From Xanthobacteraceae bacterium (GTDB lineage Bacteria > Pseudomonadota > Alphaproteobacteria > Rhizobiales > Xanthobacteraceae): 64,000 nt of DNA. Both the position numbers and the translations under genes were made by a program. The stretch is from assembly GCA_030037895.1 (NCBI GenBank), contig JASHPW010000016.1, positions 62,001 through 126,000 on the forward strand, read 5' to 3'. The notes beneath the pieces are model-generated. The model had not been told where the DNA came from, ran no database searches, and was given only the letters and a program-made list of their open reading frames with translations. Each line of letters opens with the position of its first letter. Position 1 is the stretch's first letter. Below are positions 41,592-49,188 of the stretch, one piece after another.

Positions 41592-42209
41592 CTATTTTCT
41601 GGCGACGAGGTCGATGAGCGCGGACATGCCGACATGCGCCGTGCCCTCGTTGATGATGCTGTCGTGCTCGCGGATCTCGATCTCCTTGAGATCGCCGAAC
41701 GCCGCTTCGAGCAGGGCGCGCGTGTACATGTGCTCCGCGTCCGGCGGCCCGCCGGTGCGATAGGCGAGCTGCTCGGGCCGATAGGCCTGCATGAGCAGGA
41801 GGCCGCCGGGCTTGAGCGCCGATTTGAGGTTGGCGAACAATGCGGCGCGTTCGGCGCCGGCGAAGTGGATGAAGATCGCCGCGACCACGTCGAAGGCGTC
41901 CTTCGGCCAGCGCCAGGTGGTGAGGTCGGCGACGTCCGTGCGCAGCCGCACGCCACGTTCCCGCGCCAGCGCGCGCGCTTTGGCGAGCGCGGTGGGTGAA
42001 AAATCGACGGCGAGAACGTCGAGGCCCTGTTCGGCGAGCCATACGCCGTTGCGGCCTTCCCCGTCGGCCACCGACAGCGCCGTCTTCAGTCCGCGCAGCC
42101 GATGGGCTTGCGCCTTGAGGAACGCATTCGGTTCCGTGCCGAACAGGTAGCCGGGAGCGCCGAACCGCGTTTCCCATCGTTGCCGCTGTGACGAGTCGCT
42201 CGTCGGCAT
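41592..42209 (-). CDS. Class I SAM-dependent methyltransferase (TehB-like)
   Basis: WETRFGAPGYLFGTEPNAFL, LSVADGEGRNGVWLAEQGLDVLAVDFSPTALAKA; start assigned at 42209 within the longer ORF. Confidence 0.88.
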   Translation of the reverse strand: MPTSDSSQRQRWETRFGAPGYLFGTEPNAFLKAQAHRLRGLKTALSVADGEGRNGVWLAEQGLDVLAVDFSPTALAKARALARERGVRLRTDVADLTTWRWPKDAFDVVAAIFIHFAGAERAALFANLKSALKPGGLLLMQAYRPEQLAYRTGGPPDAEHMYTRALLEAAFGDLKEIEIREHDSIINEGTAHVGMSALIDLVARK

Positions 42210-42261: not shown

Positions 42262-43203
42262 TCATTCGGCGTCGACGCGGAATCCGCCGTCGGACTCGAG
42301 CGTGATGCGGCCGTCGGCGACGGCGCGCGCCCAACGGCCGGTCGCCGGCAATCCGCCGAACGAGAAGAAATGTGGAGAAACGCCGACCGGCGCCGCGTCG
42401 GCGAGCGCCCGCACCAGGTCGTCGGGGGTCGCCATGGCAAACATCTGCCGGACGAGTCCCGCGCGCCGCGTGAGCGCCTGCGCGGAGGCGCGCACGCCGC
42501 ACCGGCCGGCGTAGCGCATGAGCGAGGTGAAGCTGGTCGGACCGGCAAGGCCGACGTGCACGGGGTGATCGAAGCCGAAGGCGCGCAGCCGCGCGATGTA
42601 GTCAAGGATGGCGCGCGCGTCGAAGCAGAACTGGGTGACGATCTCGACCGTCAGTCCGCTCGCCTCGGCGGCCGCGATTTTTTCAGCCAGCGCGCGGTTA
42701 AGCTCTTCATCACCGATGCGCGGGTGGCCGTCGGGGTAGCCGGCGACGCCGATGGCGCTGATGCCGTGCCGTTGCAACGCGCCGCTGTTGATGGCGTCGA
42801 TGGCGCCCCGGAACACCCCGCATTCCGCGCGGTCGCCGGCGATGAGAAGGACGCGGCGCACGTCGGCCTCGCCGTCGAGCCGGGCGAGGAAGTCGTCGAG
42901 CGCTGCGACGGTCGCGAAATTGCGCACCGCCACGTGCGGCACCGGCGCGAAGCCGGCCGCGCGCAGCCGGACGGCGGCGGCGACGGATTCCTCCGCCGGC
43001 CTGTTGGGAACGGCGCTGATAAAGACACGTGTGCCGGGCTTGAGCACCGCGAGCGCGGCGATGTCGGATGCCGACGGCCGCGTCGCCTCGATCGAGAATC
43101 CGGCGGTGAACGCCGCGATTCGCTCAACCGGATCGAGCGGCGCGGGCTGCGGACTCGCGGGCGGGCTCATCGTGCGCAAGGCTTGATTGTCGAAATAGTT
43201 CAA
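42262..43203 (-). CDS. Methylenetetrahydrofolate reductase (MetF)-like protein
   Basis: TIM-barrel MetF-type sequence (FSIEATRP, HVAVRNF, LLIAGD, VAGYPDGHP, VTQFCFDARAILDYI, GLAGPTSFTSLMRYA). Confidence 0.83.
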   Translation of the reverse strand: MNYFDNQALRTMSPPASPQPAPLDPVERIAAFTAGFSIEATRPSASDIAALAVLKPGTRVFISAVPNRPAEESVAAAVRLRAAGFAPVPHVAVRNFATVAALDDFLARLDGEADVRRVLLIAGDRAECGVFRGAIDAINSGALQRHGISAIGVAGYPDGHPRIGDEELNRALAEKIAAAEASGLTVEIVTQFCFDARAILDYIARLRAFGFDHPVHVGLAGPTSFTSLMRYAGRCGVRASAQALTRRAGLVRQMFAMATPDDLVRALADAAPVGVSPHFFSFGGLPATGRWARAVADGRITLESDGGFRVDAE

Positions 43204-44600
43204 CTGCGTCGGCGCGAGATCACGTAAGATTCATCGAAGAACCACAAACCGCCGCGCTCGCGCAGCACCGAGCGCGTGGCGTCGATATAACGGCCGTCGG
43301 CCACCACATCGCCCAACCGGTCGTCCTCGACTTGCGCCACGTAGATCGCCGCGTTCCAGGCCGCGAACAACGTCGATGTGCCGATCGATTCGGAGATTTC
43401 CGACGGCAACGTATGCATCACGTAGCGGAACAGCGAGCGGTTGTCGGCGTAGGCGTTGAAGTTGAGGTCGCGGCCGGCCGGCCCGAGCTCGTGCTTCACC
43501 GCCTTGAGGATCTGATGGCGGTCATGGATGAACGGATGATCGTCCGGCCAGACCTTTTGGATGATTTCCATGCCGGGGTCGTGGCCGTGCGAATGGATGG
43601 CGATGAGCCGCCCGCCCGGCCCAAGCGAGCGCGCCAGCGGACCGATCACGCGCTTGGCCTTGAACTCGAGCGAGGCGCGCGCGCGATAGGGTTGCGAGGC
43701 GATGATCAGGTCATAATTGGCGATGGTGCCGCCGGGCTTGGGAATGATCGGATCGAGCAGGAACCGGTGGTCTTCGCGATAAATGACGAGCACCACCGGG
43801 CGCTCGTAGACCGGGTTGCCGGTTTGCGCGCTGACGCCGGCTTTCCAGTTGAGCGCCAGGAAGGGTTCAAGATCGATGATTTGTTGCTCGAAGCGGTGGG
43901 CGGAATTGCCGATGAGCGGCAGCTCGTGCCAGACCAGGCTCGAGGCGGCATTGAGTGACTTGACCGCAAGCCACGGCGCATCCGCATAGGCGAGGTTGGT
44001 GAGCACCAGGACCGTGGCCGGATGCTCGAAAAAGCGGTCCGCCATCCGCTGCAGCGTGAGGCGAACATCTTCGAGGCTGATCTCCTTGCCGACGATGTAG
44101 AACGGCATGTGCGTGAAGCGGTCGTGCATGGCGCGCATCACGCGCACCAGCACCGTGCCGTCGCCGACGCCGGCGTCGAAGACGCGCACCGCCGGCGGGC
44201 GTGGATGGATGTGGGCGAGCTCGTCGCCGACGCGGTTCGCCACCTCCCACTTCTCGCTGCAGGTATTGACGAAAAGGAGATACTTTTGCCGGTTGTCGAA
44301 GAAGCGGAAGTTGCGCTGCGGGTCGCCTGGCTTGGTCAAGGCTGCAACCGGGATTGGCGCCAGCGCCGCCGGCCGCGCCTCGTGCGCGCGCTCAATGACG
44401 ATGGGCCGTGGCCCTTGAGGTGGGTGGGCGGTCATGAAATTATGGATGCGATCGAGCGTGTCGGTGGTGATGCGCCCGCCATTGCGCAGGCGCGAGGTGA
44501 GTTTGCCGTCATTGACGGCGCGCCGCCCGAACGTCGATTCGGCGAGGCCCGTCTGCCGACAATAGTCCGAGATTTCCTGGATCAATTGCTGGGCGTTCAT
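43200..44600 (-). CDS. N-terminal HTH domain fused to Rossmann/SAM-methyltransferase-like domain
   Basis: N-terminus LAESTFGRRAVNDGKLTSRLRNGGRITTDTLDRIHNFM is HTH-like; VRVFDAGVGDGTVLVRVM is a SAM-binding-like motif; ATGA overlap with the MetF-like gene. Confidence 0.72.
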   Translation of the reverse strand: MNAQQLIQEISDYCRQTGLAESTFGRRAVNDGKLTSRLRNGGRITTDTLDRIHNFMTAHPPQGPRPIVIERAHEARPAALAPIPVAALTKPGDPQRNFRFFDNRQKYLLFVNTCSEKWEVANRVGDELAHIHPRPPAVRVFDAGVGDGTVLVRVMRAMHDRFTHMPFYIVGKEISLEDVRLTLQRMADRFFEHPATVLVLTNLAYADAPWLAVKSLNAASSLVWHELPLIGNSAHRFEQQIIDLEPFLALNWKAGVSAQTGNPVYERPVVLVIYREDHRFLLDPIIPKPGGTIANYDLIIASQPYRARASLEFKAKRVIGPLARSLGPGGRLIAIHSHGHDPGMEIIQKVWPDDHPFIHDRHQILKAVKHELGPAGRDLNFNAYADNRSLFRYVMHTLPSEISESIGTSTLFAAWNAAIYVAQVEDDRLGDVVADGRYIDATRSVLRERGGLWFFDESYVISRRRS

Positions 44601-44746
44601 GGCAAGACGCCGCTCCCTCGGTAGCCGCGCGACGCGGTCGTCAGCAAGGGCGGCGCGCGGTCGCTGTCAGATTCTTTTTGGCGCGTTGGCGCGGTATTTA
44701 CGGTCCCAGCGAACCAATCCGCGCGGCCAGGGTCAACCACAAAATA

Positions 44747-44765
44747 GCCCACTATTGTAGTGGGC
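44747..44765. promoter_or_regulatory. Perfect 19-bp dyad (candidate operator)
   Basis: GCCCACTA-TTG-TAGTGGGC in an AT-richer divergent intergenic region. Confidence 0.65.
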
Positions 44766-44957
44766 AATATGATGGGACATATCCCTAAATCAACGGACAC
44801 ATTTCGGTCGCGGCGCATCGGCACGTTCCCGCCGCATGGCCAAATGGCCGCGAACGAGGCGTTGCGCGCAGCGGCGAGCGCCGCCGTCCGCTCCCGGCCG
44901 GCGCGCTTCTGCGCGTTGAAACGTTGATGTATCGTCCGCTCTCGGGGACGGGATCGA

Positions 44958-45545
44958 GTGATGTGGGGCAGAAAGCGCAAGTCCGCCGTGTCGGCCGGCG
45001 CAGCCGAGGCGCGCTCGCCGTTGAAAGCGGCGGTGCACGAGGCGCGCATCGAGGCGGCCGAGCGCACCAGCGTCGTCGTCGATTTGCGCGACGCGGAAGT
45101 CGCCCGTCTCGAGCTCCTGAACGAGGCGCTGGATTCGATTTTTGCCGAGCTGCCGTCGGATGCCGGCGAGTTGTTTGACCGCGGAATAAGCCGCGGTGAC
45201 ACGCCGCGGCTGTGGATCGATGCCGTCGCGCATATCGCCATGGGGCGCGACAAGCGCATCTACCGTTTCCTGCACGATACCCGCATCGGCCGCCGCGTGC
45301 TCGCCGAGTCGCACGAGATTCCGGAAATGGTGAAGGCGATCACCGCCTATGTGGCGCGGCGCCTCGTCGAGCGCGAGCGGGCGCTTGACGACAATCCCGA
45401 TTTCATCACCCGCGTTGGCGGGCGTGCGGCCGCGCGCGCGCGCGGCCGCCGGCGCCGGCGGGCGTTTCGCACATTCCTTTTCGGCTTCATGCTGGGCCTG
45501 CTCACGCTCCTTGCCGCCGCGATATTCCTGGCGAACCGATTTTAG
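44958..45545 (+). CDS. Conserved hypothetical protein with C-terminal transmembrane anchor
   Basis: 195-aa ORF; Arg-rich stretch RGRRRRRAFRTF followed by TM LFGFMLGLLTLLAAAIFLANRF. Confidence 0.7.
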   Translation: MMWGRKRKSAVSAGAAEARSPLKAAVHEARIEAAERTSVVVDLRDAEVARLELLNEALDSIFAELPSDAGELFDRGISRGDTPRLWIDAVAHIAMGRDKRIYRFLHDTRIGRRVLAESHEIPEMVKAITAYVARRLVERERALDDNPDFITRVGGRAAARARGRRRRRAFRTFLFGFMLGLLTLLAAAIFLANRF

Positions 45546-45569: not shown

Positions 45570-46451
45570 TTAGCGAAGGGGTTGCCGCGCGACCTCCTGC
45601 ACGGCGCCATCGGCGCCGCGCTGGCGCGCAATCATCTCGCAGTGCCAGCTGTGTTCCTCGCCGTCGATGTGAAAGAGATTGTAACCGCCGGCATCCTCGC
45701 CGCCATGCGGCGCGCGCGCCGAAGCCGACGGCGCGCCGACGGCGGGGATCGCCTCGCCGCGCGGGCCATCGAGCCAGACGATCGAGCAGCGGTGATCGTG
45801 GCCGTGGAGCACGAGTTCGGCGCCCTTCTCGGCAAGCACGGCGCGAAATTCGGCGGCATCGGTCAATCGCCGCAACCAATGACTTACCGTGCTCACCGGC
45901 GGGTGATGGATGAGGACCACGCGGAACGATCCCCTGGTTTGATCGAGCGCCGCGGCAAAGAGAGAAAGCTGCTCGGCGCCGAGCTGGCCGGTGGCCAGCA
46001 ATGGCGCGGTCGGCAGCGCCGAACAGAGCGCGATCAGCGCGACGCCGCCGCGCCGACGCACGAAGGGAAACGGCGCGCGCGTCTCTTCGGTGTCGTCGCG
46101 CAGGTAATCGTCCCAGAATTCAAACGGCCAGCGCCGAGCTTGAGCCACGTAGATGTCGTGGTTGCCGGGAATCACGGTGACATCAGGCGGGCGCCCGAGG
46201 GTCGCGAGCCATGCGCGCGCCCGCGCGTATTCGGCCGGAAGCGACAGGTTGACCAGGTCGCCGGTCACCGCAATGTGGTCGACCGGGCACGCCTGCAGAT
46301 CGCGGGTTACCGCGTCGAGAGCATCGACGCGGTGGATGTTCTTCCGTTTGCGCTGCCAATTGATGAAGCCGAGCCCGCGCTTGCCGGCAAGCTCGAAAAG
46401 CTCCGGTCGCGACGGCAAATGCAGGTCGGAAATGTGGGCAAGCACGAACAT
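45570..46451 (-). CDS. Metallophosphoesterase (Icc/CpdA-like calcineurin superfamily)
   Basis: LAHISDLHLPS, VTGDLVNL, VIPGNHDIY, HHPPVS, LHGHDHRCS. Confidence 0.93.
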   Translation of the reverse strand: MFVLAHISDLHLPSRPELFELAGKRGLGFINWQRKRKNIHRVDALDAVTRDLQACPVDHIAVTGDLVNLSLPAEYARARAWLATLGRPPDVTVIPGNHDIYVAQARRWPFEFWDDYLRDDTEETRAPFPFVRRRGGVALIALCSALPTAPLLATGQLGAEQLSLFAAALDQTRGSFRVVLIHHPPVSTVSHWLRRLTDAAEFRAVLAEKGAELVLHGHDHRCSIVWLDGPRGEAIPAVGAPSASARAPHGGEDAGGYNLFHIDGEEHSWHCEMIARQRGADGAVQEVARQPLR

Positions 46452-46519: not shown

Positions 46520-47473
46520 TCATGAACTGCCGATGAGAATGCCGGCGACGAAGACGAGCACGCCGCCGACGACGACCTGGAACGCCGCGTGCAGGAAGGG
46601 CGTATCCATATAGCGCGTGCGGATCCAGGAGATGACGGCCAGTTCGACCGCGACCACGGCGAACGCGAGCGCGGTCGCAATATAGAAGTGGGGAATGAGA
46701 TAGGGCAGGGCGTGGCCGAGGCCGCCGAGCGCGGTCATGACGCCGCACACCGCGCCCCGCACCACGGGCGCGCCGCGGCCGGTGAGCGAGCCGTCGTCCG
46801 ACAAGGCTTCGGCAAAGCTCATGGAGATGCCGGCGCCGATGGCGGCGGCTAGTCCGACCAGGAAGGTCGACCAGGTATTATGCGTGGCGAAGGCGGCGGC
46901 GAAGAGGGGAGCGAGCGTCGAGACCGAGCCGTCCATGAGGCCGGCGAGCCCGGGCTGCACGTATTGCAGCATGAACACGCGCCGCGCCGTCTGATCCTCG
47001 GCTGCGCGCACTTGCGGCGTGAGCTTTGCGCCAAGCTCGTGGGCGAGCTTCCCGTGTTTGTCCTCGGCGGCGGCAAGGCGGCTCAGCAAATCCCGTATGG
47101 CCTCGTCGCGCGCCGACCGAGCCGCACGCCGGTAGAAGCGGGCGGTTTCATACTCCATTTCTTCCGCGAAATTGCGCACGGCGTCGAGCCCGAGCGGGCG
47201 GTTGAGCCAGATCGGGCGGCGCGCGACGAAGCCCTTCACGTCTTGCCGCCGGATGAGCGGGAGAAAATCGCCGAATTTCTTGCGGTAGACGTCAAGCAAC
47301 ATTTCGCGATGGCCGATCTCCTCCGCGGCCATCTCGTCGTACATCGCCGCCGTGTCCGGATAGGAGGGGCGCAGCCCGCCTGCAAACGAGCGGTAGATGC
47401 GGTTGTCCTCGTCTTCGTTGGAGATGGCGAGCGCAAGAATTTCCTGCTCGGTCAAATCGGCAAAGCGTTTCAC
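46520..47473 (-). CDS. mbfA: Membrane-bound ferritin-like/VIT1 fusion, MbfA-type iron exporter
   Basis: N-terminal ferritin-like helices (KRFADLTEQEILALAISNEDEDNRIY, MAAEEIGHREML, MEYETARFY, EDKHGKL) and C-terminal VIT1/CCC1 membrane region; GTG start at 47473 preferred over 47509. Confidence 0.9.
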   Translation of the reverse strand: MKRFADLTEQEILALAISNEDEDNRIYRSFAGGLRPSYPDTAAMYDEMAAEEIGHREMLLDVYRKKFGDFLPLIRRQDVKGFVARRPIWLNRPLGLDAVRNFAEEMEYETARFYRRAARSARDEAIRDLLSRLAAAEDKHGKLAHELGAKLTPQVRAAEDQTARRVFMLQYVQPGLAGLMDGSVSTLAPLFAAAFATHNTWSTFLVGLAAAIGAGISMSFAEALSDDGSLTGRGAPVVRGAVCGVMTALGGLGHALPYLIPHFYIATALAFAVVAVELAVISWIRTRYMDTPFLHAAFQVVVGGVLVFVAGILIGSS

Positions 47474-47512
47474 GGGCGTCGCCTCGATCGCTTGATAAGA
47501 TCCTCGCATATA

Positions 47513-48209: not shown

Positions 48210-48346
48210 TGCTCGCGCGCGCGCAACCGCCGCGCTTTCGCGGCGCGTGATCCGGTCATTTAGTTGCGGCATGGCCTGCAACCACCCTGCGGCGGCGCGC
48301 GTTGGAAGGCGTGGGCGGGCGTGGGAGTGGCAGAAGGAGAGACTCG

Positions 48347-48655
48347 ATGCGGAAGAACATCATTGCGGTCGCCGCGGCCGTCATGCTCGGCATGGCGACG
48401 ATGACCACCGGCGCAATGGCTTTAGGGCATGGCGGTGGCCACGGCGGGTTTGGCGGCCATGGCGGTCATTTTGCCGGCGGCCATTGGGGGGGCGGCGGCC
48501 ATTGGGGCGGCGGTTATGGACGCGGCGGTCGCTTTGGCAGAGGTTTTGGGCCCGGTTTCGGCGGCCTCTATCTCTATGGCGGCGGCTGGCCCTACTACTG
48601 CTCCAATGGGCCGTATTATTACCCCTACGGCAACTGCTACGGCTACGGATGGTGA
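48347..48655 (+). CDS. Secreted Gly/His/Tyr-rich protein (tandem copy 1)
   Basis: Signal peptide MRKNIIAVAAAVMLGMATMTTGAMA; HGGGHGGFGGHGGH repeats; C-terminus YYCSNGPYYYPYGNCYGYGW. Confidence 0.7.
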   Translation: MRKNIIAVAAAVMLGMATMTTGAMALGHGGGHGGFGGHGGHFAGGHWGGGGHWGGGYGRGGRFGRGFGPGFGGLYLYGGGWPYYCSNGPYYYPYGNCYGYGW

Positions 48656-48822
48656 CGCCGGCGCCGCTTCTCAAGCCACGGGAGGTTTCATTGATGCGTC
48701 GCGCTCCGCGCTATGGAGCGCGGCGCGTTCACTTTAACGCGAATTCGCTGCGGCACAGCTATGGTTTGCAACCGCCGCGGTGCTAGAAACCCGCTACGGG
48801 GCGTTGCAATGGAGAGACTTCA

Positions 48823-49188
48823 ATGCGGACGAAGATTCTTGCGCTTGCGGCCGCCCTCGCGCTCGGCGCGGCGACAATGACGACCGGCACAGTGGCGTTC
48901 GGTCGTGGTGGTGGCCACGGAGGTGGCGGCGGTGGCGGCGGCGGGTTTGGCGGCCATGGCGGCGGCTTTGGCCGCGGTGGTTTCGGAGGCGGCTACGGCC
49001 GTGGCGGCTATGGCAGAGGATACGGCAGAGGCTATGGCTGGGGTTGGGGCGGCTACGGCCTGGGCCTCGGCCTCTATGCCTGGGGCTACCCCTATGCCTA
49101 CGGCTGGTGCGGACCTTACGGTCCCTACGGTCCCTATTACGGCTACGGCTGCTCCCCCTACTACCGCTACTACGGCTACGGCTGGTAG
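48823..49188 (+). CDS. Secreted Gly/Tyr-rich protein (tandem copy 2)
   Basis: Signal peptide MRTKILALAAALALGAATMTTGTVA; Gly-rich and YGRG repeats; C-terminus ends YYRYYGYGW. Confidence 0.7.
   Translation: MRTKILALAAALALGAATMTTGTVAFGRGGGHGGGGGGGGGFGGHGGGFGRGGFGGGYGRGGYGRGYGRGYGWGWGGYGLGLGLYAWGYPYAYGWCGPYGPYGPYYGYGCSPYYRYYGYGW

Follow-up and report, generated by a model that had tools for sequence, protein, structure and literature searches.

A helix-turn-helix methyltransferase linked to MetF and a candidate operator array at its own promoter in Alphaproteobacteria

The window (the whole stretch of 64,000 nucleotides analysed here) encodes on its minus strand a 466-residue protein, HTH-MT, in which an N-terminal Cro-like helix-turn-helix (HTH) is joined to a predicted class I SAM-dependent methyltransferase (MT) domain. 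The protein is conserved within Alphaproteobacteria, its gene is linked to genes of methyl-group metabolism, and a palindromic array upstream of the gene co-occurs with the HTH across the family. Judged from these comparisons, HTH-MT is probably an autoregulated, enzyme-like methyltransferase, and we infer that its HTH binds the O1/O2 array and controls the operon. The system is a candidate for a previously undescribed mode of methyl-group control in this class, in which an MT family that lacks a Pfam or NCBIfam model and is associated with MetF, MetK, MetE-like, BHMT and LigM genes gained a phage-type DNA-binding domain together with a matching operator.

Locus and domain organization

The source genome is a Xanthobacteraceae-like MAG of 3.27 Mb in 148 contigs (~90% complete). 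The HTH-MT coding sequence (43200..44600, minus strand; 466 aa) begins with an ATG, and both this start and the HTH reading frame are kept in the related loci L031-L110. Downstream lies a MetF-like gene (42262..43170, minus strand), assigned to the SYK-6-like subtype of the MTHFR family from its matches to PF02219 and 7xg9, whose ATG at 43170 is 29 nt past the HTH-MT stop. An alternative TTG start at 43203, upstream of this ATG, would give a protein of up to 313 aa. The ATG is favoured as the start because it agrees with the N-termini of homologous MetF proteins; the overlap of stop and start at 43200-43203, which the initial annotation had described, requires the TTG and is not established in the source genome. 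The two genes form a tight co-directional pair, and both ORFs are real and retained in frame across dozens of genomes.

The initial annotation also noted a second class I methyltransferase gene ~50 nt further on. A generic class I methyltransferase gene (Methyltransf_25 by Pfam; 41592-42209, minus strand) is indeed present 52 nt beyond the MetF stop, but a relative occurs in just 3 of the 80 related loci (L032, L036 and L045), and we rejected it as a part of the conserved unit. The span proposed for the module, 42262-44600, holds the first two genes, whereas this third gene lies outside it. Upstream of HTH-MT, the intergenic region that starts at 44600 is bordered by a divergent gene at 44958. 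Several other features of the window are recorded here in their own right. An iron exporter MbfA gene (46520-47509, minus strand; NF045676 above the cut-off) adjoins a calcineurin-like phosphoesterase gene (45570-46451, minus strand), and a block of NUDIX, MbfA, phosphoesterase and a 195-aa gene is kept upstream of HTH-MT among the closest relatives. The segment 34420-38794 (minus strand) contains acyl carrier protein-like, dehydratase-like, two ketosynthase-like and alcohol dehydrogenase-like genes (named by eye) and looks like a lipid A very-long-chain fatty acid locus. Two tandem small Gly/His/Tyr-rich proteins of 117 and 121 aa, predicted to be secreted, are encoded at 48302-49188 (plus strand).

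The N-terminal HTH-like segment of the initial annotation is recovered by structure prediction. In the AlphaFold2 model built with 35 relatives, residues 1-60 (44421..44600, minus strand) hold a Cro-like HTH, modelled over residues 1-58 with helices at 3-17, 21-29, 34-39 and 46-58 and a pLDDT of ~90. A linker that is predicted to be disordered (residues 64-102; 44295..44411, minus strand; pLDDT <50) and that varies in length and sequence in the alignment leads to the MT domain (residues 103-466; 43203..44294, minus strand), in which the class I SAM-MT fold spans residues 103-463. Modelled alone with 25 relatives, the MT domain reaches a pLDDT of 92.3 and a pTM of 0.91. The stretch VFDAGVGDGTVL, initially called SAM-binding-like, corresponds to SAM motif I of this fold and is intact (FDAGVGDGT, residues 141-149; 44154..44180, minus strand); D142, A143, G144, G146 and D147 are invariant in the sets of 35 and 25 sequences, and E173, the acidic residue after strand 2, is invariant as well. 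The top Foldseek matches of the MT domain are all class I methyltransferases (E 1e-8, with moderate TM scores of 0.45/0.56); histamine N-methyltransferase comes first and other small-molecule methyltransferases are also among the best. By these models the MT domain has the Rossmann-like seven-strand fold of class I SAM-dependent methyltransferases, and it is probably catalytically active on a small molecule or a macromolecule. HTH-MT has no family match in Pfam or NCBIfam, and its relatives give only stray weak Pfam matches (e.g., Methyltransf_28, E 0.015). A PDB sequence search returned no relative among solved structures, and a literature search found no paper describing the protein.

Conserved neighbours and distribution

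In 62 of the 80 related GTDB loci, the gene directly downstream of HTH-MT is a co-directional MetF gene of the SYK-6-like subtype, usually with a gap of <50 nt, so the pairing proposed from the single locus is conserved across genomes. An adjoining MetF of that family is absent from 18 of the 80, some of which lie near contig ends. The name given initially to the MetF-like gene is upheld: the protein scores 29.9 bits against PF02219 (gathering cut-off 24), aligns with the solved MTHFR 7xg9 (E 2.4e-54), which is the closest structure for the subtype, and carries GYP.GHP and TQF motifs that align with solved MTHFRs. On this sequence evidence, it is a member of the MTHFR family. The structure 7xg9 is presumably that of the Sphingobium SYK-6 enzyme. 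LigM-dependent O-demethylation in Sphingobium SYK-6 requires MetF for folate cycling (PMC12997858).

In Bradyrhizobium, the partner of HTH-MT is metK. The genes for HTH-MT, metK and MetF are consecutive in one genome (L005/L132), and a genome with two HTH-MT copies has one beside metK (L158) and one beside MetF (L157). Pseudolabrys-type loci show the order protocatechuate dioxygenase (two subunits, named by eye from sequence), HTH-MT, MetF and several MetE-like genes, and a LigM homologue (5x1i, E 3e-196) is found in 12 loci of this type. Transcription of HTH-MT in Pseudolabrys may also come from the upstream dioxygenase operon. Up to five tandem short MetE-like genes (Meth_synt_2, 1ypx-like) were observed downstream of MetF in L060, L068, L076, L088, L092-L096 and others; these arrays neighbour protocatechuate dioxygenase, LigM and acyl-CoA genes and possibly encode methyltransferases of methoxyaromatic catabolism.

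A total of 423 related stretches were found among GTDB contigs. Within the order, 298 genomes were sampled; ~27 have MT-domain relatives, in some cases lacking the HTH, and 8 others have the HTH alone. When 399 genomes from across the phylum were sampled, every match fell inside Alphaproteobacteria, to which HTH-MT is restricted within the genomes sampled. In orders further away than the nearest ones, most MT domains lack the HTH. No annotated HTH-MT copy was found on plasmids, and a search of phages returned weak matches to the HTH only.

Candidate operator array and phage switch relatives

A candidate operator/promoter array, which is absent from the initial annotation, spans 44731-44786 (56 bp) upstream of HTH-MT. 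O2 (44747..44765) is a perfect inverted repeat, GCCCACTA-TTG-TAGTGGGC, with the core CCCA-N9-TGGG at 44748-44764. O1 (TGGGACATATCCCT; 44773..44786), 8 bp from O2, has one mismatch to TGGG-N6-CCCA; neither operator is assigned a strand. On the minus strand, a -35-like TTGACC (44731..44736) lies 11 bp from O2, and a putative -10-like TGG-TTCGCT (44708..44716), a weak hexamer with an extended TGn, lies 17 bp from the -35. A consensus of the promoters of 79 loci retains the sequence TTGGTTcgcT.

The O2 core occurs in 49 of 97 upstream regions and the O1 core in 43 of 97, against 0.5 and 1.0 expected from dinucleotide shuffles; because related genomes have inherited these intergenic regions from common ancestors, the counts are not independent, which thinning and the contrast with HTH-less homologues given below address in part. 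The arrangement is strict: O1 and O2 are 8 bp apart in 26 of 28 pairs among relatives, and the distance from O2 to TTGAC is 11 bp in all 46 of 46 loci. Promoters of the Bradyrhizobium metK type carry no clear O1/O2 sites, and the half-sites of many Pseudolabrys promoters are tandem, not palindromic. The window O2 is the sole site of the strict pattern GCCCAYN7RTGGGC in the genome assembly, and a regulon beyond the own operon was rejected on this ground and on the counts of relaxed sites in 19 genomes given below. The combined O1-O2 pattern with an exact O1 has zero matches in the home genome, since the window O1 contains a mismatch. A SAM/SAH riboswitch upstream was likewise considered and rejected, because no Rfam family reached its gathering threshold either in the window or in 12 related loci.

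Residues 2-75 of HTH-MT match phrog_7669 (E 2.6e-7), and the HTH is 36-47% identical to phage proteins in the Cro position. These closest relatives, 70-90 aa in length (phrog_7669), are phage proteins whose genes diverge from those of S24-peptidase CI-like repressors. The switch regions of five prophage loci (L026-L030) carry one to three TGGG-N6-CCCA sites, and a sixth, more distant prophage locus (L160) has none. HTH-MT, by contrast, carries its HTH at the start of a 466-aa chain, and its gene has no CI-like neighbour; the domain is a relative of the Cro-type family, and the protein itself is not a Cro. That this HTH type and this operator occur together in two unrelated contexts, phage switch regions and HTH-MT promoters, is the best indication that the HTH would read the TGGG-N6-CCCA motif. 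The same type of Cro-like HTH was also seen fused to an AMP nucleosidase (AMNp_N, PNP_UDP_1) in another genome (G467; L152, 1299-2975, plus strand), where no TGGG/CCCA operator was seen before the fusion gene. This fusion suggests that phage switch domains are recurrently recruited onto metabolic enzymes.

Proposed autoregulation, alternative readings and known systems

The conserved operator array makes autoregulation likely. In the mechanism we propose, HTH-MT dimers would occupy O1 and O2, immediately before the -35 of their own promoter, and set transcription of the operon, which comprises HTH-MT and MetF, or HTH-MT and MetK in Bradyrhizobium and relatives. The fixed placement of the sites upstream of the -35, together with the weak -10, leans towards activation, although repression could also operate. 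Occupancy of the MT domain by SAM, SAH or substrate would alter DNA binding, and the operon would thereby track methyl-group status, because the fusion joins a DNA-binding domain to a predicted SAM-binding enzyme whose operon partners make or use methyl-THF, methionine or SAM. This ligand coupling, taken alone, is possible but somewhat doubtful; a putative sensing of SAM/SAH or methyl-folate by HTH-MT is plausible.

An alternative that we regard as unlikely is an ordinary methyltransferase whose autoregulation through the HTH does not respond to methyl status; the HTH would only limit the protein level, and the MetF/MetK neighbours would supply the donor. This reading accords with the confinement of the strict operator to the own gene in the home genome and with relaxed sites in 19 genomes, where further sites are few and the counts are near those of a reversed-pattern control, the HTH-MT site excepted. 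However, the linkage to MetF or MetK as operon partner is specific and recurrent, which argues that expression of the methyl-supply genes is controlled jointly with HTH-MT.

A pure one-carbon sensor is in our judgement quite unlikely; here the MT domain would bind SAM/SAH (or methyl-folate) without catalysing a reaction, and HTH-MT would serve solely to regulate MetF/MetK. Such a sensor would fit the HTH fusion, the operator array and the linkage to metF and metK, and the SahR and SamR regulons of Proteobacteria include the same genes (PMC4239095). In contrast, the HTH-less homologues of ~380 aa keep the SAM motif and the core residues, with 46 alignment columns invariant over the two classes, and often neighbour MetF, which suggests a function of the MT domain apart from DNA binding. 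Some of them adjoin a different MetF subtype (L142-L145 and L147), which is also present elsewhere in the home genome (L208), or BHMT (L151), so the tie to methyl metabolism would belong to the MT domain and probably predates the HTH. HTH-less forms are basal in the MT-domain tree (midpoint rooting), on which six changes are needed to account for the presence of the HTH, such as a gain with subsequent losses. The retention of core residues by the HTH-less homologues favours an enzyme to which a regulator domain was added over a pure sensor.

It is improbable that the array is owned by another regulator, such as a CI-like repressor or another factor, with the HTH of HTH-MT serving a different role. 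In prophages the operators would be accessible to the CI-like repressor too, but the array tracks the presence of the HTH across the family: O1 or O2 is found for 31 of 38 non-redundant HTH-bearing versus 1 of 19 HTH-less homologues (p 2.4e-8; sequences thinned at 86% identity), and O1 matches the operator beside the closest HTH relatives. That a generic methyltransferase and MetF adjoin by chance, for which the outer flanking genes that differ among clades and the MetF-type neighbour in only 7 of 23 loci of HTH-less homologues might speak, is extremely unlikely and already contradicted by the neighbourhood counts, with 62 of 80 loci co-directional at mostly short gaps and two MetF subfamilies, metK, MetE-like genes and BHMT recurring beside the same MT family. 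An HTH fold is predicted and the neighbours are not random, contrary to the two objections that the initial annotation had anticipated.

For the autoregulated enzyme, a serious though tentative origin is the capture of a phage switch module, a Cro-type HTH with its operator array, by an alphaproteobacterial MT; the product would be a SAM/SAH-responsive autoregulated enzyme that controls methyl-THF/SAM supply, convergent with ArsR-MT/SahR. Phage switch parts may thus find reuse in metabolism, and the system is a candidate explanation for methyl-THF balance in O-demethylating, lignin-degrading bacteria. A sharp test is possible, with one protein and one predicted 56-bp site.

Like HTH-MT, the Cro-type proteins of temperate phages in the unannotated family phrog_7669 combine a related HTH with TGGG-N6-CCCA operators, theirs lying in a cI/cro-like intergenic region. 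Unlike HTH-MT, they are 70-90 aa long and lack an MT domain, and their operators overlap or flank the promoter, whereas the HTH-MT sites keep a fixed distance upstream of the -35. Trigger enzymes such as PutA, BirA and NadR also regulate their own operons; their folds are unlike HTH-MT, for which the enzyme role is putative. The SYK-6 ligM-metF-ligH module (PMC12997858) contains a related MetF subtype, and the Pseudolabrys HTH-MT-MetF pair shares its cluster with a LigM homologue and protocatechuate dioxygenase; however, no HTH-MT is described in the SYK-6 module, and the window has no nearby O-demethylase. SahR/SamR regulons in Proteobacteria, including Alphaproteobacteria, comprise metF, metK, metE and bhmT and show self-regulation (PMC4239095); control of such genes and self-regulation are likewise predicted for HTH-MT. 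Their sites are 20-24 bp palindromes of other sequence in regulons of several genes, whereas the HTH-MT sites essentially mark the own operon only.

The earlier statement that no characterised system has this layout is too strong. In Brevundimonas sp. M20, the regulator-methyltransferase fusion ArsR^M is encoded by the first gene of arsR^M-metF-HMT-metH, methylates arsenite, binds its own promoter and is reported to be bifunctional (PMC10190100). HTH-MT was rejected as a member of the ArsR^M/SahR group, with no match to HTH_5 or Methyltransf_11/25: ArsR^M is ~320 aa long and has an ArsR winged HTH (HTH_5) and an MT of the Methyltransf_11/25 type, and HTH-MT matches neither Pfam family. The home genome contains an ArsR-MT fusion of its own (SahR/ArsR^M-like, with an HTH_5 match; L207, contig C30, 4675-5670, minus strand), which does not lie beside metF, and HTH-MT has no significant overall alignment to it (best E 0.013 over 19 residues). 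ArsR^M and HTH-MT have in common an N-terminal DNA-binding domain, a SAM-MT domain and the position as first gene of an operon with metF. Both have a palindrome at their own promoter, which is bound in the case of ArsR^M and is a candidate operator in the case of HTH-MT, and the operators differ in sequence (TGGG/CCCA for HTH-MT versus CTTTATATAAAG for ArsR^M). The layout of a regulator-methyltransferase fusion in a metF operon therefore has a precedent in ArsR^M, built there from unrelated domains.
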